This document shows, piece after piece, positions 43,232 through 52,807 of a stretch of DNA of 64,000 bases. A program made the translations under genes and the position numbers. Source of the DNA: Natronococcus sp. A-GB7 (GTDB taxonomy: Archaea > Halobacteriota > Halobacteria > Halobacteriales > Natrialbaceae); NCBI RefSeq assembly GCF_029688865.1, contig NZ_JARUKV010000012.1:62001-126000 (forward strand), in the 5' to 3' direction. The notes under the pieces are model-generated. The model did not search any database. It saw nothing but the letters and a program-made list of their open reading frames with translations, and was not told the origin of the DNA. The stretch's first letter is position 1, and the number at the start of each line of letters is the position of its first letter.

Positions 43232-43672
43232 CTACGAGAGGTCGGCGTCGCGAAAGCGGAGGTAGCCGACCGCAAGCGGGAGGACGATCCAGAACAGCAG
43301 TACCGCGGCCAGGAACAGCGGTTCGTGGACGAGTGCCTCGGTCGTGCCGGACGGTGTCTGTTCGGTCTGTGTCGCACTGACTCCTTCCTCCGTCGCGGTG
43401 ATGGCGATCTGACTCGCCTCGGGAAGGAACACGTCTCCGCTCGTACTCATTGCCGTGAGGGGGTTGAGGTGGTCGACGACGGCGATCCAGGTCGGCGGGT
43501 CGGCGCCCGGAAGGCTTCGAGTAACCGCGTAGTAGAGCCCGTCGACGACGTACGACCAGAGGACGGTCGCGAGGAGGTACCCGCCGAGAGCGACGCTGAT
43601 CGCTCTGGTCCTGGTCTCGGTGACGGCCGAAATCCCGACCGCGATCGAGACGGTTGCCGCCGAAAGGGGGAA
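43232..43672 (-). pseudogene. ABC-2 permease, 5'-truncated at the CRISPR array
   Basis: The frame ends DRRFRDADLS-like (YLRFRDADLS) at 43232 and reads as the C-terminal part of an ABC-2 permease: AATVSIAVGISAVTETRTRA, GGYLLATVLWSYVVDGLYYA, DHLNPLTAM and LLFWIVLPLAVGYLRF. Upstream, the frame runs straight into the degenerate terminal CRISPR repeat at 43673 and then through repeats. The N-terminal half (coupling helix and first helices), seen in the intact relative at 23199, is absent, and no ATPase gene is adjacent. It is therefore a remnant, cut when the island formed. Confidence 0.8.
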
Positions 43673-44303
43673 CTCTTCAACAATACAGGGTTCATCAGGA
43701 ACTACGATCACGAGGCCCACGCTTCGCTGTATGACCGACCTTCGACCCCATAAGGGTTCATCAGGAACTCTCGGGGATCTGGGAGTCACGGCGCTGGTAC
43801 TCAAACCTTCGACCCCACAAGGGTTCATCAGGAACTGTGGGAACCCGGTTTCTGGCTTCTCGTCGAGAATCCTTCGACCCCACAAGGGTTCATCAGGAAC
43901 ATCTACCTGAACCCGGAGTGAAATGGACGTGTGCACCTTCGACCCCACAAGGGTTCATCAGGAACCCAGTCGACGTTTTCGTATGGGTTGTTCAGTATCT
44001 CCCTTCGACCCCACAAGGGTTCATCAGGAACATCTTCCTACGTTTCTTTGAGGGTAACCCGTAGCCCCCTTCGACCCCACAAGGGTTCATCAGGAACACG
44101 TAGGCAAATGGCCCGTGAGTTGGTTGATTCGGACCTTCGACCCCATAAGGGTTCATCAGGAACAGGGATGTAATGACCTTACATCTTGGTGTTACGGAAC
44201 CTTCGACCCCACAAGGGTTCATCAGGAACCCTCACCAATTGGTTCCGATACGTTTGAAATCCACACACCGGGCCCTTCGACCCCACAAGGGTTCATCAGG
44301 AAC
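43673..44303 (-). CRISPR. CRISPR array, 9 full repeats plus one degenerate repeat, no cas genes in window
   Basis: Full 30-bp repeats start at 43739, 43806, 43871, 43936, 44002, 44068, 44134, 44200 and 44274. A degenerate copy, sharing only the GGGTTCATCAGGAAC half, ends at 43702. On the minus strand the repeat begins GTTCCTGATGAACCC and ends GGGGTCGAAGG, matching the haloarchaeal type I-B pattern (GTTTCAGA-GAACCCTTGTGGG-T-GAAGC). Copies at 43739 and 44134 carry one change (CATAAGG for CACAAGG). Spacers are 36, 37, 35, 35, 36, 36, 36, 36 and 44 bases. The degenerate end at low coordinates and the repeat sense place the leader on the right. Confidence 0.95.
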
Positions 44304-44466
44304 CATTGCAAAAACCGAGTTGTTAGCGCCTACAATACCGTTACTCGAACTACCTCTATCGTCGACCGCTAATACCCGATTTCACCCGGGGGGTCGACAT
44401 AACTGTCTGATGTCTGGCTTTGTATTGGGCTTTAACGTATGGAAACGTTTCTTTTTCCGTTTTCGC
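44304..44466 (-). promoter_or_regulatory. Probable CRISPR leader
   Basis: The non-coding segment right of the last intact repeat is on the upstream side if the array is transcribed leftwards. It contains a purine-rich tract (minus strand GAAAACGGAAAAAGAAACG) followed by TTAAAGCCC, a possible BRE/TATA pair. There is no open frame of note. The assignment rests on orientation and position, not on a known leader match. Confidence 0.45.
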
Positions 44467-44486
44467 GGGTAGTTGGAGAACTACCC
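44467..44486. repeat. Perfect 8-bp hairpin beside the leader
   Basis: GGGTAGTT and AACTACCC flank GGAG. It could be a subterminal palindrome of an IS200/IS605-type end, or a structural element of the leader or of an RNA. Confidence 0.7.
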
Positions 44487-44912
44487 TTAGTATACGGTGG
44501 GGTGCCTGCTCTTGGCGTGACGGGTTCCTTCCCGCATGGAATAGGCCATGCATCTATGGATTATAATTTCCGGGACCTCGTCGGACGAACGTCCTGTGCC
44601 CCAACCACTGTTGGTGTAGTACTGCCTCGAGCCGGGCGCTGTCTATGCGCCGCTTTTCGCCTATCTCGGCGGAGTCCCGCGGGCGAAAGGTCCACGCCCA
44701 TGCATCCAAGCCAGGGACGCCCGAGCCGAGCTTATCGGCGGGCAGGCTCGTACCGAGTAGCATCGACTCGATACGCGCGGCGAAGTGCCGCGTTGCGGAA
44801 ACTGAGATATACCCAACTCCGCTTACTCATCGGTTTAGCAACAAACCACAAATAACTATTGGTGTCGAGTACAATTAGTGATATATCAGACAGTCGCCGG
44901 TGACACAGACCA
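44487..44912. other. Hairpin-rich non-coding block upstream of tnpB
   Basis: No convincing gene; a minus frame at 44554-44763 (69 codons) lacks haloarchaeal composition. The block 44590-44800 holds consecutive short dyads: GGACGAACGTCC, GGCGC-7-GCGCC, GGGCG-9-CGCCC, GCCGA-5-TCGGC nested in GCCC/GGGC, and GCGGC-5-GCCGC. This density suggests a folded RNA or IS end. I could not match it to RNase P RNA, SRP RNA or tRNA. AT-rich sequence (44830-44890) precedes tnpB and probably holds its promoter. Confidence 0.5.
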
Positions 44913-46082
44913 ATGAGTGAATCAAATCAAGCCGATCTCGAGGAGTTCACTGCCGGAACGACGACTGAGACGGTCGTCCAGACAGTCGTCCTCGATCTCG
45001 AGACGAGCCAGCAGAAGACCGAGCGCGTTCGGGCTGGCGTTGAGGAGTTTCAGGCGATGGCGGGGTACATGGCCGATATGATGCCCTCAATTCCAGAATG
45101 GGAGTGGAGTCCACAGAACAACACACTCTATCAGATGGTGACGCGAGAGTTCGAGGATCGAACAGTCAAGGCTACGACTGCCAGAGAGGCAGCACAGCAT
45201 GTTGCCGAATCCTTCTCGTCCTGGCGTAGTCGCGGGAAAGACGGTAATCGACCGCAGTTCGGTGGGGGAAGCTATCTTGTTCTCTCACATCAGGATTTCG
45301 AGTTGGTCGAAAACGAACGAGGATATGGGCTGAAGGCGAGTTTCATTCCCTACAAACCAGTATGGTTTCATATCGAGCCAAACGGCTATCAACGGGATTA
45401 TCTCGAGCGAATTTTCGAGGACGATGCCGACACTGGTTCGTGTGAACTCCACGTCGAACCGGACGGATCGGTTCGTGCCCATCTGGTGGTCAAGTGGGAC
45501 GTCGAGGTCTACGAGCCAGCTGACGTGACGACGACCGTCGGTGTCGATATCGGTGAAAACGTGATCTACGCCGCAGCCGTGGTCGACGGGGACGACGTCG
45601 AGGACGTCGTAGTCGAACCGGGACGAGAGTTTCGCCACTACCGAGAGCGACTTGAGGACAAGCGAGAGCGACTGATGGAACAGGGTGATCTTCGCGGGGT
45701 ACGGCAGACTCGAGGTGAGCGCGAGCGGTACACCGAGCACGTTCTCAATACGGCATCTCGAGAGATCGTCGATCTTGCGAGTGAGCATGCGCCGTCTACG
45801 ATCGCGCTCGAGGAGCTAACCGGGTATCGTGAGACAGTTGCTGATCCAATTCACGACTGGCCGTACGCTAAGTTGCAGGAGATGATCGCGTACAAGGCGA
45901 AAGCTACAGGTGTTCCTATAGAAATGGTTGATCCCGAAAATACCAGTATTACCTGTCGAAAGTGTGGACAAACGAATCGTGAGTATCGTAATGGGACGGA
46001 GTTTTCTTGTTCACGTTGTGGATATGAAATTCATGCTGATGTGAACGCAGCCATCAACATCGCTCAAGTGGAGAAAACATAG
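44913..46082 (+). CDS. tnpB: IS200/IS605-type TnpB, RNA-guided nuclease family
   Basis: A 389-residue protein with an intact RuvC-like site: Asp212 (TVGVDIGENV), Glu300 (IALEELTGYRE) and Asp376 (HADVNAAINIA). A Cys4 zinc ribbon sits between the last two (Cys348, Cys351, Cys366, Cys369). TnpB proteins are guided by an RNA from the element's end and cut DNA at a short motif; they aid retention of the element. No TnpA (Y1 transposase) gene is near, so it is a stand-alone IS1341-type element or a domesticated copy. The end of the gene becomes AT-rich. The N-terminal 60 residues are longer and more acidic than typical. Confidence 0.93.
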   Translation: MSESNQADLEEFTAGTTTETVVQTVVLDLETSQQKTERVRAGVEEFQAMAGYMADMMPSIPEWEWSPQNNTLYQMVTREFEDRTVKATTAREAAQHVAESFSSWRSRGKDGNRPQFGGGSYLVLSHQDFELVENERGYGLKASFIPYKPVWFHIEPNGYQRDYLERIFEDDADTGSCELHVEPDGSVRAHLVVKWDVEVYEPADVTTTVGVDIGENVIYAAAVVDGDDVEDVVVEPGREFRHYRERLEDKRERLMEQGDLRGVRQTRGERERYTEHVLNTASREIVDLASEHAPSTIALEELTGYRETVADPIHDWPYAKLQEMIAYKAKATGVPIEMVDPENTSITCRKCGQTNREYRNGTEFSCSRCGYEIHADVNAAINIAQVEKT

Positions 46083-46236
46083 TTCGTTCTTGTCCTACTT
46101 ATTGATAGAAATGATAGGTCTATCTTTACGCTTAAGTATAGTATGAGGGATTCTAGAGAGATTTATTGTTGAGTGCGAATATATTGCCTCTAATGGCCTC
46201 TATCCTCACTTTTCACTTTCACCTTGGTGCCGGCAA

Positions 46237-46244
46237 TTTAAATA
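46237..46244 (+). promoter_or_regulatory. TATA box of the two-gene unit
   Basis: TTTAAATA lies 28 bases before the ATG at 46273, so the message should have almost no leader. The surrounding 190-base gap after tnpB has no gene. Confidence 0.6.
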
Positions 46245-46272
46245 TGATTGCTCTCCACTGATAGGTTAGAGT

Positions 46273-47196
46273 ATGACAGGAAAGATTTGGGGCCTTGATC
46301 TCCGAATTTGGGATGTAAAACGGGGCAGCGCAATGTGGGCAAGTGCGGCAAAAAGGGATGTAATAATCGACTTGGGTGCGAGCAATTTTTCACCCATTGA
46401 GCATTTAGAAAGACAGTCTACTGTATCATCCCTTGATTATATGATCATAACTCATCCACATAAGGACCATATACGAGATATTGTCCAATATGAGAAATCC
46501 GATTTTCAAGTTCCTCTCCTATGTCAAAATGAGGCAACAGACCCACTGCTGGAGGAGCGAATTGAAGAAGAAGACGACGAATCTTATCTTAACATCGCAA
46601 ACACATACAGAGAGTTTGTGAGTCGATTTGACCAGCCAGCTGTTGAAGACCCCTCATCTGAGGACTGGGCACAAGGAACAATGTTTTCGAACTATCATCT
46701 CGACAGTGATGATGTTTCTGGCAGTATTTTCGATCGATTAAACAACTTAAGTATTATTACTGTTATTGAGCGCTATGGATTTAAACTTGTAACAGCGGGA
46801 GATATTCTTGAAGATGGGATCAATACTGCGATGAAAGACACCGAAATTATGAATGCAATCGAAGACGCAAATATTCTAGTCGCTCCACACCACGGGAGGA
46901 AAAGCAGCTATGTTAGTGAATTCGTTGACCATATTAATCCAGAAATAGTGCTTATTTCAGATAAGTCTGATGACGGTAATAATGCGGGTGGCTACTATAC
47001 AAAACCAAATGGAGTTACTGTACTTGATGAACCAGACAACGAGACTTCCGAGCGTAATGTCCTCACTACGCGCAAAGATGGCAGACTTCGTGTTCGTGCA
47101 AACCACGAAGATGATTGGCAGGTGTCATTCCACGATCAATTTGCCAATAAAAAGGCCAAGGGGAAAATGGCCAAAAGAAACTACACCCGGTTTTGA
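46273..47196 (+). CDS. Metallo-beta-lactamase-fold hydrolase, ComEC-like domain
   Basis: A 307-residue soluble protein with the MBL metal motif HPHKDH at residues 61-66, preceded by SLDYMIITHP. The later NLSIITVIERYGFKLVTAGDI (157-177, quoted in part) and APHHGRKSSY (204-213) match the order seen in the MBL domain of ComEC/Rec2 and in stand-alone relatives. It should bind two metals and hydrolyse a phosphodiester, probably nucleic acid or nucleotide. There is no membrane helix or signal. It is AT-rich (22 of 60 bases G+C in line 46801-46860) and its codons differ from the backbone. The stop is 14 bases before the next gene's ATG. Confidence 0.85.
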   Translation: MTGKIWGLDLRIWDVKRGSAMWASAAKRDVIIDLGASNFSPIEHLERQSTVSSLDYMIITHPHKDHIRDIVQYEKSDFQVPLLCQNEATDPLLEERIEEEDDESYLNIANTYREFVSRFDQPAVEDPSSEDWAQGTMFSNYHLDSDDVSGSIFDRLNNLSIITVIERYGFKLVTAGDILEDGINTAMKDTEIMNAIEDANILVAPHHGRKSSYVSEFVDHINPEIVLISDKSDDGNNAGGYYTKPNGVTVLDEPDNETSERNVLTTRKDGRLRVRANHEDDWQVSFHDQFANKKAKGKMAKRNYTRF

Positions 47197-47210
47197 GAGC
47201 TATAGGATTA

Positions 47211-47924
47211 ATGGCAATTGAGAGGCCTCTACAGGTTCTTAACCTGTATGACGTTCTTACCGATTTGATACCTGGTGCTGCCTTTTTACTATTTATAGCT
47301 ATTTTATTTCCTGTAGAAACTCTCCCCATCTTCGAAGCATCTGGAGCAATGATACTCATCACGGTAATTGGATCGTTGATTCTTGGTCATATGATCCAAT
47401 GGGTTAGAGGGTGGGAGTGTCTTTGGAAACAGCCAGATGTGTTCCAACATACAATGCGACAAATACGACTGGAATCTGACCTTTCGGCCCCGAGAAGGGA
47501 CAATAATCCAAACAACACGGAAAATTCACTCCCGATGAGTACAGTACGATATCAGTTCTTAACCCTCGTTGATGAGATATTTGAACTTGATAATACTGTG
47601 TCAGACACTGAACGCTATCAGATCGTACTTAGTTTCCTCGAAACACGACCACCAGTCCGTGCACTTCGTTTTCAATCGCTTTATTCATTTTATCGAAGTA
47701 TGGTTGTGACTTCATGGGCTATCTTGACAATCGGTGTGGTTGCAATTGGATCCTTTCTGCTAGGATGGATTCCTACTCGTCCCCTTCCTGTGCTAATCTC
47801 GGTAGTTCTACTTGGATTAATTCTTGCCGTAGTAACCCGGGAACGCCGTGATAGATTCGAGAAAACGTTTGTAGGCTATGCTATTCGTGAATTCTATTCT
47901 GAGCAAAAGATCAACGAGAACTAA
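47211..47924 (+). CDS. Four-helix membrane protein paired with the MBL hydrolase
   Basis: From the ATG at 47211 (a TTG at 47193 overlaps the previous stop) the protein has 237 residues. Two helices lie near the N-terminus (about 17-33 and 46-62), a soluble acidic-basic segment of about 100 residues follows, and two helices lie at about 164-186 and 192-209. A basic tail ends it. The start NLYDVLTDLIPGAAFLL has the (Y)D...(I/L)PG pattern I associate with small membrane proteins in accessory islands. No known domain is evident. It is AT-rich like its partner and clearly in the same transcript. A pore-forming or membrane-anchoring role is inference. Confidence 0.8.
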   Translation: MAIERPLQVLNLYDVLTDLIPGAAFLLFIAILFPVETLPIFEASGAMILITVIGSLILGHMIQWVRGWECLWKQPDVFQHTMRQIRLESDLSAPRRDNNPNNTENSLPMSTVRYQFLTLVDEIFELDNTVSDTERYQIVLSFLETRPPVRALRFQSLYSFYRSMVVTSWAILTIGVVAIGSFLLGWIPTRPLPVLISVVLLGLILAVVTRERRDRFEKTFVGYAIREFYSEQKINEN

Positions 47925-47952
47925 CTAAACTACGAATCTCGGATTATATTGC

Positions 47953-48771
47953 TTACTCGACGACGTGCTCGAGATCGTACGAGCCGAGCCGTCGCACCCA
48001 TCCCTTCTCGGCTAGCTCCTCGATGTCCTCGAGCGCCTCGATCGTCCGGGACTCGTACAGCCCCGCCTCGACGTCGATGTGGAAGACGTAGTCGCCGAGT
48101 CGCTGCCCGCTGGGACGGGATTCGACCCGCGAGAGGTTGATGTCCCGCTCGGCGAAGGGCTCGAGCAACTCGAGCAACAGTCCGGGGTAGTTCGCGTTCG
48201 GGTAGACGACGAACGTCGATTTTCCGCCGCCCGTCGAGCGCTCGTCGGCGGGCGCGAGCGCGAAAAACCGCGTCGCGTTCGAGTCCTGGTCCTGGATGTC
48301 CTCGGCGAGCACCTCGAGTCCGTTCTCGATGTCGGCGTTCGCGGGGTGGCCGATCCCCGCGATCGAAGCGTCGTCGCGGGCGAACTCGACGCCCTGAGCA
48401 GTGCTGGCGACGGCCTCGAGGGTGGCGTCGGGATACTCGCGCTCGAGGTAGGAGCGACACTGTGCGAGCGCCTGGGAGTGGCTGGCGATCGTGTCGAACT
48501 CCGGCCCCTGGGCGAGCAGCGCGTGGCGGATCGGCGTGACGATCTCGCGGACGATCGCGACGTCGTACTCCGCGACGGCGTCGAGGCTCTCCGTGACGCT
48601 GCCCTCGATGCTGTTCTCGATGGGGACGATACCGCGGTCGTACTCGCCGGTCGCGACGGCTTCGACGATCGAGGTGACCGACTGTCGGAACCCGATCTCG
48701 TCGTCGTCGGCGATCGCGCTCGCTGCCCGGTGCGAGTAGGTCCCTTCGGGACCGAGCGTGACTGTACGCAT
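47953..48771 (-). CDS. pheA: Prephenate dehydratase
   Basis: The ATG at 48771 (MRTVTLGPEGTYSHRAAS) gives 272 residues; the frame upstream is not coding. It converts prephenate to phenylpyruvate in phenylalanine synthesis. GIVPIENSIEGSVTESLD and the substrate-binding ATRFFALA (after DSN) are conserved, and a C-terminal ACT domain (KSTFVVYPNANYPGLLLELL, ESRPSGQRLGDYVFHIDVE) gives feedback control by phenylalanine. No chorismate mutase domain is fused. It marks the right border of the accessory island. Confidence 0.95.
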   Translation of the reverse strand: MRTVTLGPEGTYSHRAASAIADDDEIGFRQSVTSIVEAVATGEYDRGIVPIENSIEGSVTESLDAVAEYDVAIVREIVTPIRHALLAQGPEFDTIASHSQALAQCRSYLEREYPDATLEAVASTAQGVEFARDDASIAGIGHPANADIENGLEVLAEDIQDQDSNATRFFALAPADERSTGGGKSTFVVYPNANYPGLLLELLEPFAERDINLSRVESRPSGQRLGDYVFHIDVEAGLYESRTIEALEDIEELAEKGWVRRLGSYDLEHVVE

Positions 48772-48933
48772 TGGCTCAGTCTTTGCCGGACCGCGCCAAA
48801 AGCGCGTCGGAGCGGACGCGTTCGGTCCGGCCGACGCTCGGCTCGAGGACGGATCCGGAACCCGGGTCGCGACCGAACGCTCGAGTGGCGGTTCGGGACG
48901 GCGTCCTCGGCAAAACAATCGGTTCTCGGACGG

Positions 48934-49242
48934 CTACTCTTCGAGGTGGTCGATTCCCTTCTTGGCGACGTTTGCTTCCGTTATCTCGTCGGGCATCCAG
49001 TCGGGTTTGTCGTCGGGAGCGGTCTCCTCCCAGGCCCAGCCGTCGTAGATGTGGACCTTGTCGGTGCCTTTCTCCCGGAGCCGGAGCTCGACGCGGTCGG
49101 CCGCGTCCTCGCTCGAGCCGGGCTCGAGTCGGCGGGCCGCCTTGAGTGCCGCCTGGCGCGGCGTGTTTCCCGAGAAGACGCTCGTCTCGTCGCCGCCCGA
49201 TTCTCGCAGCGCGAAGTTTCGCTTTCCGTCCTCACGTACCAT
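48934..49242 (-). CDS. MC1-type archaeal chromosomal protein
   Basis: The start MVREDGKRNFALRESG at 49242 is set by a good ribosome binding site. The 102-residue product matches the MC1 family of non-histone DNA-benders: KRNFALRESGGDETSVFSGNTPRQAALKAARRL, then ELRLREKGTDKVHIYDGW (each quoted in part). MC1 bends DNA and preferentially binds distorted sites. The protein is more acidic than methanogen MC1, as expected in halophiles. Cotranscription with pheA is possible (162-base gap), but not obvious. Confidence 0.92.
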   Translation of the reverse strand: MVREDGKRNFALRESGGDETSVFSGNTPRQAALKAARRLEPGSSEDAADRVELRLREKGTDKVHIYDGWAWEETAPDDKPDWMPDEITEANVAKKGIDHLEE

Positions 49243-49250
49243 AGTTTTAG

Positions 49251-49255
49251 CCTCC
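49251..49255 (-). promoter_or_regulatory. Ribosome binding site of the MC1 gene
   Basis: GGAGG on the minus strand lies eight bases before the ATG at 49242. It excludes the in-frame ATG at 49257, inside which the site would fall, as the main start. Confidence 0.65.
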
Positions 49256-49440
49256 ATGTCAGTTCTGCACACGATCAGACATAAAGATATCCCCCAAAAT
49301 CGACGGACTGCGCCACTATGTTTAAATGATCCTGTCGGATCGGTCCGGTCACTGCTCCACCCGGATCTGTGCTACGTCGCGGTTGCACGGGGAGATTCGG
49401 ATCCGAGGCGAGATCATTCGCTGTGTCGTAGAAAACACTT

Positions 49441-49448
49441 AAGTATAT
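49441..49448 (+). promoter_or_regulatory. TATA box of the AbrB-like gene
   Basis: AAGTATAT lies 31 bases before the ATG at 49480, consistent with a leaderless or short-leader transcript. Confidence 0.5.
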
Positions 49449-49479
49449 CCTACGGCGAAGTGCGACCTAGAATCCCGCG

Positions 49480-49677
49480 ATGGTCCGGAAAAAGAAGCTG
49501 AGTCCAAGCGGTGCGAAAGACGAAGACGGCAACTATCACAACGTCCATCTAAACCTCCACGAGGACGAACTCGCAGTCGCGGGTATGGATATCGGCGACG
49601 AAGTTTTCGTTCGCGTCCGGGACGGGAAGATCATCATCCAGAAGGCTAACGAAGAAGAGGTAGAGCACGAGTTCTAA
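49480..49677 (+). CDS. AbrB/SpoVT-like small protein
   Basis: A 65-residue protein. The N-terminal basic patch (MVRKKKLSPSGA) precedes a beta-strand arrangement, and DIGDEVFVRVRDGKIIIQKA is the swapped-hairpin DNA-binding motif of AbrB/MazE-type domains. It probably dimerises and binds DNA as a regulator. No toxin gene is adjacent, so an antitoxin role is not supported. The gene stands alone and uses a short-leader promoter. Confidence 0.75.
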   Translation: MVRKKKLSPSGAKDEDGNYHNVHLNLHEDELAVAGMDIGDEVFVRVRDGKIIIQKANEEEVEHEF

Positions 49678-49887
49678 CCGACCACTACATCGTTCCGTTC
49701 CCGTTGTACTGCTGTTTCGGTTCGAGATTTTCTCTCGAGTATCTCCCCTGGAAGGATCAGCGACGGTAGCCGGCCGACAGCTACGAAGCCCGGTCCGCTC
49801 ATAGAACGATCCTTTCGAGGGGTTAACTTAACCGAACTGACAAACCCTTAGTTCAGGATCGTTGTCTACCTAAAGATACGTGTAGCA

Positions 49888-49900
49888 GAGAGACTCTCTC
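49888..49900. repeat. Inverted repeat upstream of the carboxypeptidase promoter
   Basis: GAGAG-ACT-CTCTC lies about ten bases upstream of the TATA box at 49910. Its position suits an operator for an activator or repressor. Confidence 0.4.
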
Positions 49901-49909
49901 TTCCCTGAG

Positions 49910-49917
49910 TTTATATA
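49910..49917 (+). promoter_or_regulatory. TATA box of the M14 carboxypeptidase gene
   Basis: TTTATATA lies 50 bases before the ATG at 49967. A GGAGG ribosome binding site at 49941-49945 lies in the predicted leader, unlike the leaderless genes nearby. Confidence 0.6.
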
Positions 49918-49966
49918 CCCAGCATCATTGTTGATATTCTGGAGGATAGCCCCTCATAGAACTCAA

Positions 49967-52807
49967 ATGACTTGGAATCTACTCGCTGCTGACTCGGACG
50001 AAACCGACGATCGCCTTTCGGCCGCTCGCTTCGATGAGGCGGATATCGACCGCCGAACGTTCCTCTCGCTCTCCGCGGCGACGGGTGCGGCACTCGCAGT
50101 ACCCGGAACTGCAGCGGCCGACGTAACCGGGGAACCGATGACCGACGAGTACGCCTTCGTCGTCAACCACACGCCCGAAGCGTACGAGGCCGCGACCCTC
50201 ATCGAGTTCGCCGATCAGGACGGTCTCACGGCTTTCGCGGACGCGTACGAGGACGAAACCGAGGACGAAGATCTCGAGCGCGCGCCGAAAGCGGTCACGC
50301 GGGACTCGCCTTCGCCTGCCGCCCACGCACACCTCACGGCCGACGAAGTCGAGGACGTTCTCGAGTTCGACGGAATCGAGCGCATGGATTTCTCTCCGGG
50401 CGCGAACCCCTGGTGGAAACTCGAGGCGCCCTACGAGGAGGGGGTTTTCCCGCCCGTTGAAGAGGCCCGGGAGTACCTCGCCTACGAGGAGACCACACAG
50501 GCACTCGAGTACCTCGAAACGACCGCTTCGGACCGGATTTCCGTCGAAACGGTCGGCCAGTCGCCGGGATGGGAGAACCGATTTACCGGCGAGGAGTCCG
50601 ACCCTCGCGACATCTACGTCGCCGAAGTGACGAACGACGTTCACGACGAGTCGTCGTTCGCGGCCAAGGAGAAAGTCGTCTATTCGCTGAATATCCACGG
50701 CGACGAACGTGCGGGAACCGAGGCCGGCTGTCGGCTGCTCGAGGAGATCGCGTTCGGCGAGGCCGAGGCGTTCGAGCCGCTGCTGGACGATGTCGTCCTG
50801 TTGTTCCTGTTTACCAATCCCGACGGCTGGGTCTCGCGCAAGCCCCAGACCCATATCCCGTGGGTCGAAGAGCACGACACTAACTTCCAGCGCGGAAACG
50901 CGAGCCAGTTCAACGAGCAGCCGGTCGACACGAATCGTCAGTATCCAACGATCGGGTGGACCGACCCCAACTTCCGGCCGGCAGAGCCCGACGGTGCGCC
51001 CGAGGAGTTCCACGACCTCGTTCCCGACTCGCTGGCGATCGTCGACCACTTCCGGGGGTACGATAACGTGGAGTTCCTCTGTGACTACCACGGGATGTAC
51101 ACCGCCGACCACATGGTGTTCAATCTCGAGACGAACGCGCCGTTCGATCACGACGGGACCCACGATCTCGACGAGGTCAACATCCGGATCGGCGAGGGAA
51201 TGCACGATTTCTGGGGTGATATCGGTGCCATCGCCGACGACATCGAGACCGCCAGCCAGGAGATGTACGATGAGTCGTTCGTTCCGGACGGAGACAGCTA
51301 CGAGGGGCTGTTCGACTGGGGAACGATCTACGACTCGTTGTCCTACCAGATCACCGGCGGCTTCCTCTGTTGGGCCGGTCAACCCGAGGCGTTCGGTGGC
51401 CTCGGCGCGATCACGGTCGCTCCAGAAGTAATTCTCTCGAACCACTCCGAGGACGCACAGAAGGAGTGGAAACCGTACTGGACTCGCCACTACGAGGAGG
51501 CTTACCGCATCTCGATGCGCGAGTACGCCGAGATGGCGGCCCAGACGACCACTGCGACCATCGCCACGGGAGACCAGGATACGGCCTACGTTACGACGGA
51601 CGCGCTGACGCGGTCCTCGGCCGATCTGCCACACACGGATACCGGTTCCGGCACAGATCCGTCCGGCGACGGCCACGGCTCCGGGGCCCGCCGGAGCCAC
51701 GACGTCGTCCAGCCCGGTCCCGGCGGAAGTACGCGAATCACGGCCGAAGCCACCGACGCCTCGCAGTCGATCTTCATCCACCTCGAGGGCGTCGGAAACG
51801 CGACCGAGGGAGTCGTCAGACTGCTCAACCCTGCGGGGAAGGTCGTCCGCGAAATCGACCTCGAAGCGAAGGCGGATCCGAACGACTCGACGGTCCGAAA
51901 GCACGACTACGAGGATATCTGTATCCGCCACCCCGAGACGGGTCAGTGGGACGTCGAGATCGAAAGCGACGCAGAGATCAGTGCCAGTCTGACGACCGTC
52001 GACGCCGAGAACGGGATCCCCGATCCCGAGGAAGTACTGGGGTACGAACAGCGCGAGTACCTTGTCAATCCGATGCAGTTCTTCGCCGATCTCGAGCCGT
52101 ACCTCGAGGACGGCGACATGGACGGCCTGCGCGTTCACGACGTTCGTATCGGACGACTGCTCCGGGGCAACTCCGGCCAGCGCCACTATGATAAGCTCGT
52201 CGTCTCGCACGACGACGGGATCGACGACCCGCAGTACGTAGAGGCGATCGAGGCGTTCGTCGAGGCCGGCGGCGACCTCGTGCTCACGGACGCGGGCGTG
52301 AACCTCCTCGGAGCGCTCGAGGTCGGCAACGCCGCGTCGATCGCAGCCGACGACGTCCGCAACGTCGAGATGCAGTTCGCGAACCTCGAGGACCGAGCGT
52401 TCGACCACCCGCTACTCGCCGGGATTCGGCCGCGCCAGCAGGAGATCTGGAAGGGGTCCCAGCTAGGATATACGACCGACGTCGACCAGCCCGCGACGAC
52501 CGTCGATCCGGACGCGTTCGCCGACGCCGGCGGTTCGGTCGCCGGGACGTTCGCGGAGTACGAAGACGGAAGCGAGGAGCCCACCGGGACCGGCGTCGGT
52601 GCCGGAATCCTCTCGGCGGACGGGGCCGAAATCGCCGTCGTCGGATCGGTCCTCCCCCCGGCCCAGCAGACGGAACTCCACCCGTTCGGGATGGCAGATT
52701 ACGCTGTCTCCTTTATGGGTCACACGCTGCTGTGTAACGCACTTGGCTTCGAGCAGTGCCGATACGCCGAGGGAGAGCTCACGAGGACCTACGGCGAGAT
52801 CAGATAG
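49967..52807 (+). CDS. Tat-exported M14 zinc carboxypeptidase with large C-terminal region
   Basis: The ATG at 49967 gives 946 residues. The Tat signal is DRRTFLSLSAATGAALA (28-44). The M14 domain covers about 160-540: the zinc motif is H244-G-D-E247, followed by NPDGW and the third ligand His375 (LCDYHGMY). After a low-complexity linker (HTDTGSGTDPSGDGHGSG), a jelly-roll-like domain spans about 575-690, and the end (about 720-940) resembles a ThuA/GATase-like domain (FVEAGGDLVLTDAGVN). It should trim peptides or cell-wall material outside the cell. The upstream promoter, operator-like dyad and ribosome binding site suggest regulated expression. Confidence 0.9.
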   Translation: MTWNLLAADSDETDDRLSAARFDEADIDRRTFLSLSAATGAALAVPGTAAADVTGEPMTDEYAFVVNHTPEAYEAATLIEFADQDGLTAFADAYEDETEDEDLERAPKAVTRDSPSPAAHAHLTADEVEDVLEFDGIERMDFSPGANPWWKLEAPYEEGVFPPVEEAREYLAYEETTQALEYLETTASDRISVETVGQSPGWENRFTGEESDPRDIYVAEVTNDVHDESSFAAKEKVVYSLNIHGDERAGTEAGCRLLEEIAFGEAEAFEPLLDDVVLLFLFTNPDGWVSRKPQTHIPWVEEHDTNFQRGNASQFNEQPVDTNRQYPTIGWTDPNFRPAEPDGAPEEFHDLVPDSLAIVDHFRGYDNVEFLCDYHGMYTADHMVFNLETNAPFDHDGTHDLDEVNIRIGEGMHDFWGDIGAIADDIETASQEMYDESFVPDGDSYEGLFDWGTIYDSLSYQITGGFLCWAGQPEAFGGLGAITVAPEVILSNHSEDAQKEWKPYWTRHYEEAYRISMREYAEMAAQTTTATIATGDQDTAYVTTDALTRSSADLPHTDTGSGTDPSGDGHGSGARRSHDVVQPGPGGSTRITAEATDASQSIFIHLEGVGNATEGVVRLLNPAGKVVREIDLEAKADPNDSTVRKHDYEDICIRHPETGQWDVEIESDAEISASLTTVDAENGIPDPEEVLGYEQREYLVNPMQFFADLEPYLEDGDMDGLRVHDVRIGRLLRGNSGQRHYDKLVVSHDDGIDDPQYVEAIEAFVEAGGDLVLTDAGVNLLGALEVGNAASIAADDVRNVEMQFANLEDRAFDHPLLAGIRPRQQEIWKGSQLGYTTDVDQPATTVDPDAFADAGGSVAGTFAEYEDGSEEPTGTGVGAGILSADGAEIAVVGSVLPPAQQTELHPFGMADYAVSFMGHTLLCNALGFEQCRYAEGELTRTYGEIR

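Follow-up and report, generated by a model that had tools for sequence, protein, structure and literature searches.

A metallo-beta-lactamase-fold protein and a Csx27-like membrane protein form a conserved gene pair, with a candidate DNA-damage promoter in haloarchaea

Gene content and layout of the locus

The window analysed here is a stretch of 64,000 nucleotides (G000:C4:62001-126000) from a 4.88-Mb haloarchaeal draft genome. It contains a CRISPR array, a tnpB gene and, after these, two adjacent genes encoding a soluble hydrolase of the metallo-beta-lactamase (MBL) fold and a four-helix membrane protein (Table 1). A sequence-only reading of this DNA had already placed the pair behind the array and the TnpB gene, and the coordinates agree with it.

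Table 1. Features of the locus, in positions of the window.
Feature	Position	Strand	Basis or remark
Strain-specific replacement segment (orphan CRISPR array, tnpB, gene pair)	43668..47949	.	Synteny with congeners
CRISPR array	43673-44303		Nine intact 30-nt repeats and one degenerate repeat at the left end
tnpB	44913-46082		RNA-guided TnpB family NF040570, E 8.6e-40
Longer conserved box around TTTCACTTTCA	46208-46234	+	Comparison of loci
Haloarchaeal UV/DNA-damage motif TTTCACTTTCA (11 bp)	46211..46221	+	Identical to the Boubriak 2008 motif
TATA-like box TTTAAATA	46237..46244	+	Sequence; probable leader of ~8 nt
Soluble ComEC-like MBL hydrolase (PDC-M48B), 307 aa	46273..47196	+	ORF list, PADLOC, model, motifs
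Csx27-like four-helix membrane protein, 237 aa	47211..47924	+	Start by homology; PADLOC/NCBIfam Csx27, model

In the list of open reading frames the membrane protein begins at a TTG codon (47193), with a 4-nt overlap with the MBL gene. Alignments of homologues place the start at the ATG at 47211 instead, which gives a protein of 237 aa and a gap of 14 bases after the MBL gene, the spacing that the sequence-only reading had reported. The MBL frame is present as described there, with HPHKDH at residues 61-66 and the reported APHHG within APHHGR at residues 204-209. Both genes are as AT-rich as was claimed, with 42% G+C against about 65% in the backbone and 54% in tnpB.

The segment that carries these genes is specific to the strain. 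Among the congeners (L157-L165), seven of eight genomes keep both flanks (left up to 43661-43671, right from 47949-47953) around ABC-transporter genes, and in the eighth, G205, the flanks are separated from each other. In the window the segment replaces the ABC-transporter genes, and its left breakpoint is the start of the array, where an ABC permease gene is truncated.

The CRISPR array is an orphan. A search of the whole genome for the Cas7 family found none, and the genome has no second array with the same repeat. A functional tie of the pair to the array or to TnpB was rejected, because the array is an orphan and neither element was seen in the inspected flanks of related loci.

The MBL protein

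The MBL protein is soluble and consists of the MBL domain alone, the fused competence membrane channel and the OB domain being absent. It matches the PADLOC family PDC-M48B (PDLC04675) at E 8.8e-48, with weaker matches to RTasMBL, LmuA and Avs1a, and PDC-M48B is matched by all 88 MBLs scanned. The NCBIfam matches are weak, to ComEC/Rec2 (TIGR00361; E 5.5e-7 across the MBL portion) and to Avs1a.

In terms of structure, the AlphaFold model (pLDDT 88.5) has its best match among solved structures in the beta-lactamase-like domain of ComEC from Moorella (9ic4; Z 24.7, rmsd 3.0 over 245 residues), in agreement with the label "ComEC-like" given in the sequence-only reading. A phosphorylcholine esterase comes second at Z 21, and no other match reaches 16.

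The metal site is complete in the window protein (HxHxDH, GD including D177, and HHGR including H207). Among 88 MBL relatives, N157, G176, H206, H207, G208 and R209 are invariant. The HxHxDH site is complete in 53 of the 88, and the remaining 35 are without the full motif, so that catalysis may be dispensable in parts of the family. One bacterial clade has NADQDH in its place, which suggests that at least part of the family may bind a single metal or act without hydrolysis.

The membrane protein

The Csx27 family is known from type VI-B CRISPR-Cas (reportedly Smargon 2017 and Makarova 2019). The window membrane protein matches Csx27 both in PADLOC (E 1.6e-8) and in NCBIfam (E 2e-6), and 26 of 77 membrane partners in related loci match it as well; the sequence-only reading had assigned the protein to no known family, which has to be corrected. 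Its NCBIfam score of 28 bits misses the curated cut-off of 65, and by profile similarity the protein is a distant relative of Csx27 and not an equivalog. In the flanks examined (44000-50500) the ORFs belong to tnpB and housekeeping genes, and Cas13b was not seen beside the pair.

The match of the window protein to PDC-M48A is marginal (E 0.037), and three PDC-M48A models are matched by 19, 17 and 12 of the 77 partners in related loci. An orphan membrane family was also considered as a reading and rejected on the PADLOC match of the window protein to Csx27 and on those of the partners to Csx27 and PDC-M48A.

Both hydropathy and the AlphaFold model (pLDDT 83.3) give the four helices reported earlier, which in the model span residues 12-32, 44-72, 150-184 and 192-236, with a helical insert at 77-144. 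Sequence and fold searches of the PDB gave no clear match (top Z at most 6.7), so pore formation by this protein would be an analogy. Searches of PHROGs and Pfam were uninformative.

Conservation of the pair

A tblastn search of plasmids found both genes together in four haloarchaeal plasmids. A scan of genome contigs added 79 loci, from Halobacteria, Methanoperedens and Pacearchaeota to Bacteroidota, Proteobacteria and Chloroflexota; it was queried with one conserved peptide and therefore samples close relatives and not the whole family. An MBL reading frame was obtained from 90 of 93 loci.

A membrane partner was defined as an adjacent protein of 130-300 aa with at least two predicted helices. 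Such a partner is present at 77 of the 90 MBL loci, compared with 41 of 976 background ORFs. Over the same 90 loci, 71 partners are direct neighbours of the MBL gene, 75 lie on the same strand and 66 lie within 20 bp; the homologues are therefore not seldom adjacent. Three exceptions (L081, L090 and L103) have the membrane gene past a second MBL gene or past an MBL gene truncated by the contig end.

The distances among MBLs and among membrane proteins are correlated, with a Mantel r of 0.64 over 75 pairs that none of 2000 permutations reached. Furthermore, a profile of the membrane protein was run against 391 genomes of the class, and its ten best matches (E 3.5e-83 or lower) all fall in MBL-positive genomes, one in each of the ten. 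Chance adjacency was rejected on the linkage, the Mantel correlation and this ten-for-ten co-occurrence. The MBL and the small membrane protein are one conserved module, present in archaea and in many bacterial phyla, and the earlier suggestion that the two genes form one system stands in the sense of conserved linkage.

Some haloarchaeal loci have a different arrangement. A plasmid-type variant (L013, L014, L022 and L023) encodes a one-helix protein of 96-98 aa between the MBL and the membrane protein, together with a second, divergent MBL gene (348-353 aa) pointing away from the pair. Another locus of this variant, L168, has an equally large gap between the MBL and membrane-protein genes. 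The Csx27-like proteins of L210, L211, L213 and L215, also haloarchaeal, have a conserved neighbour of 127-137 aa that is not an MBL.

Distribution and neighbouring genes

At class level, 10 of the 391 genomes carry the MBL; within the family it occurs in 4 of 125, and all 8 other congeners lack it. The module loci are often plasmid-borne. No relative of the module was found in phage records, and IMG/VR gave four distant matches only, so the module is not usually carried by viruses.

Among the genes around the MBL loci are those of type I restriction, the Mads components mad2 and mad5, ubiquitin-like E2/ThiF/JAB, GmrSD and Schlafen-type genes, and integrases. For this list, 210 of the 256 ORFs with 220 aa or more were scanned; it records presence without a matched background, hence no enrichment is claimed. 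Defence genes are thus present around the homologues, and across the 90 loci the MBL is not consistently associated with any metabolic pathway; such an association would have spoken against the sequence-only reading. The patchy distribution, the frequent plasmid location and the defence-gene neighbours together look defence-like.

At five loci without a membrane partner (L051, L056, L061, L065 and L067), a gene for a patatin-like phospholipase (E 1e-12 to 3e-20) follows the MBL gene directly, with a gap of less than 25 bases. Two large upstream genes are present as well at L051 and L065. CBASS and similar systems can use either a phospholipase or a membrane protein as their effector, and the patatin swap fits an arrangement of an MBL plus a membrane effector.

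A DNA-damage motif in the promoter

The sequence upstream of the MBL gene, TTTTCACTTTCACCTTGGTGCCGGCAATTTAAATA, contains TTTCACTTTCA, which begins 62 nt before the start codon and lies upstream of the TATA-like box. The position of that box agrees with the short-leader promoter predicted earlier. According to Boubriak et al. 2008 (PMC2556686), the 11-bp TTTCACTTTCA lies 5' of the TATA box in the UV-B-induced genes radA1, top6B, vng17 and vng280 of Halobacterium NRC-1. The same order, motif and then TATA box, is also seen before rpa and before the Halomontanus orthologue.

As for its frequency, TTCACTTTCACY occurs 9 times in this genome, against 2 for the reversed control. The longer form of the motif has 14 occurrences among the matches listed for 21 genomes, and the reversed control has 0. 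Genes behind the motif include topVIB, radA and hef in this genome, and also rpa and mre11 in relatives, names that were assigned by inspecting protein starts and not by family search. Copies of TTCACTTTCACY in the same genome also lie upstream of uncharacterised genes at L112 (G000:C45:206676) and L113 (G000:C54:6239), which are possible new members of the damage regulon.

Considering only the two-gene haloarchaeal loci, the motif is present with at most one mismatch in 7 of 8, at 60-64 nt before the start, and in 1 of 175 other genes of those loci. The two-gene locus without it is Ods02 (L019). Over the loci compared, mean identity is 0.41 in the box columns and 0.27 in the upstream DNA. The motif is absent from the four three-gene plasmid-type loci tested (L013, L014, L022 and L023), and the damage wiring would thus belong to the two-gene type.

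Some Csx27-like proteins are paired with a different MBL, and the motif before that MBL is exact in L208 and has one mismatch in L216; L217 has the CACTTTCAC core only. On the minus strand of the oriented loci L210 (7262-10060) and L213 (7064-9823), a downstream gene encodes a protein of about 920-930 aa (MGARELLARGEYDF...). The damage motif lies upstream of these genes with 0-1 mismatch, and another Csx27-like gene is nearby.

The presence of the motif in the promoter suggests DNA damage or UV as a trigger of the pair.

Interpretation

The combination of an MBL and a Csx27-type protein is already known as a prediction. It is catalogued in PADLOC as the candidate defence module PDC-M48, and the Csx27 family was described by Makarova et al. 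2019 (doi 10.1093/femsle/fnz088), so the novelty that the sequence-only reading had expected does not hold. In the open-access literature we found no experiment on a PDC-M48 pair, and no paper on PDC-M48 or 6A-MBL.

The pair looks like a defence or self-sacrifice system. Our best explanation is that it is a haloarchaeal, DNA-damage-inducible module of the PDC-M48 kind, in which an MBL would control a Csx27-type membrane effector. We hold this with moderate confidence, as every functional step rests on comparison. DNA damage, or an attack on replication, would increase transcription of the pair through the TTTCACTTTCA promoter box. The MBL, a free-standing protein related to the nuclease domain of ComEC, would most likely recognise or process a nucleic acid or nucleotide arising from infection or genome damage. 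The Csx27-like protein, a four-helix protein of the inner membrane, would be the effector and could permeabilise or depolarise the membrane once the MBL releases or activates it. The computations establish the two genes and their families, the conserved linkage, the catalytic motif, the mobility, the exchange of the partner for a patatin phospholipase and the promoter box. From the comparisons we infer an antiviral or abortive-infection role, the attack on the membrane, control by the MBL, its enzyme activity and the induction.

A bolder version is possible, and we offer it tentatively. Here the pair would be a mobile, MBL-controlled membrane effector placed under the haloarchaeal damage regulon, attack on the genome by a virus or by UV would both induce it and trigger membrane killing, and the same MBL switch would drive a phospholipase elsewhere.

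Two readings of the Csx27 family outside CRISPR compete, a DNA channel and a membrane effector. According to PMC7642515 and PMC8209922, Makarova et al. 2019 linked the family to competence, ubiquitin-like and WYL genes and proposed its members as ssDNA channels. The pair could accordingly be a split machine for DNA uptake and degradation, with a Csx27-like ssDNA channel and a ComEC-type MBL nuclease that degrades DNA there. The fold of the MBL, nearest to the ComEC nuclease domain, and the connection with competence genes reported in the literature (see PMC7642515) would suit this, and a damage promoter would suit the import of DNA for repair. The patatin replacements, however, favour an effector: a phospholipase cannot act as a DNA channel, which is our main reason to prefer the membrane-effector reading. 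The module is also patchy and plasmid-borne, unlike competence genes, and we consider DNA uptake rather unlikely.

The membrane-effector reading has further competitors. The frequent plasmid location, the common 4-base overlap of the two genes and the strain-specific segment around the chromosomal copy would all suit an addiction module of the toxin-antitoxin type, where the MBL restrains a membrane toxin and has no specific antiviral role. An MBL of about 300 aa with conserved catalytic residues is nevertheless bigger than the usual antitoxin, defence genes are among the neighbours, and a damage-response promoter would be unusual for a simple addiction module. This explanation is unlikely in our view.

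The roles may also be reversed, with the MBL as the toxic nuclease and the membrane protein as its anchor or as a sensor, for instance of virus entry or membrane damage. The nuclease-like fold and the full metal site of the window MBL agree with this, as does the observation that Csx27 modulates, and does not execute, the activity of Cas13b (PMC8209922). Yet the phospholipase found in the place of the partner points to the partner as effector, and many MBL relatives that keep the partner have lost a motif histidine, making reversed roles very unlikely.

Lastly, ordinary accessory genes of repair or of the envelope, damage-induced, with nucleotides or lipids as substrates and no part in defence, would explain a promoter box shared with rpa, radA, topVIB, hef and mre11 and the phosphorylcholine esterase match, but they are highly improbable for a module missing from about 97% of the haloarchaeal genomes searched and tied to no particular metabolic pathway in the 90 loci.

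The damage-regulon promoter provides a concrete candidate inducer for a candidate defence module of archaea, and the promoter box suggests that defence and DNA repair may be wired together in haloarchaea. If the pair is indeed a membrane effector under the damage regulon, the Csx27 family would supply one class of effectors to an immune system based on the MBL, and archaeal defence would be linked to the repair regulon.

Comparison with known systems

The MBL resembles the nuclease domain of ComEC/Rec2 (9ic4) in its fold and in the NxS, GD and HHG motifs. It differs in being a standalone protein, with no OB or competence membrane domain and with a four-helix partner instead.

As for Csx27 of type VI-B, the membrane protein has the four helices, the length (about 200-240 aa) and HMM similarity over nearly the full length. 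The differences are a partner that is a standalone MBL, no Cas13b seen alongside and a score below the NCBIfam equivalog cut-off.

CBASS effectors include the patatin CapV and transmembrane effectors. The likeness lies in the choice of effector, a phospholipase or a membrane protein, behind a common signalling module. In the present case the shared module is the MBL, and no nucleotide cyclase was found beside the window pair.

With the haloarchaeal UV-B regulon (Boubriak 2008, PMC2556686) the locus shares the 11-bp motif, without mismatch and 5' of a TATA box. Among the motif-bearing genes named in the sections of that paper on which we draw, there is no candidate defence gene.

The last system compared is PDC-M48 itself. 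The window MBL matches M48B, a small membrane protein is adjacent to it, and partners in related loci match M48A. What sets the window pair apart is a membrane protein nearer to Csx27 than to M48A, the MBL-first gene order and the damage-response promoter.
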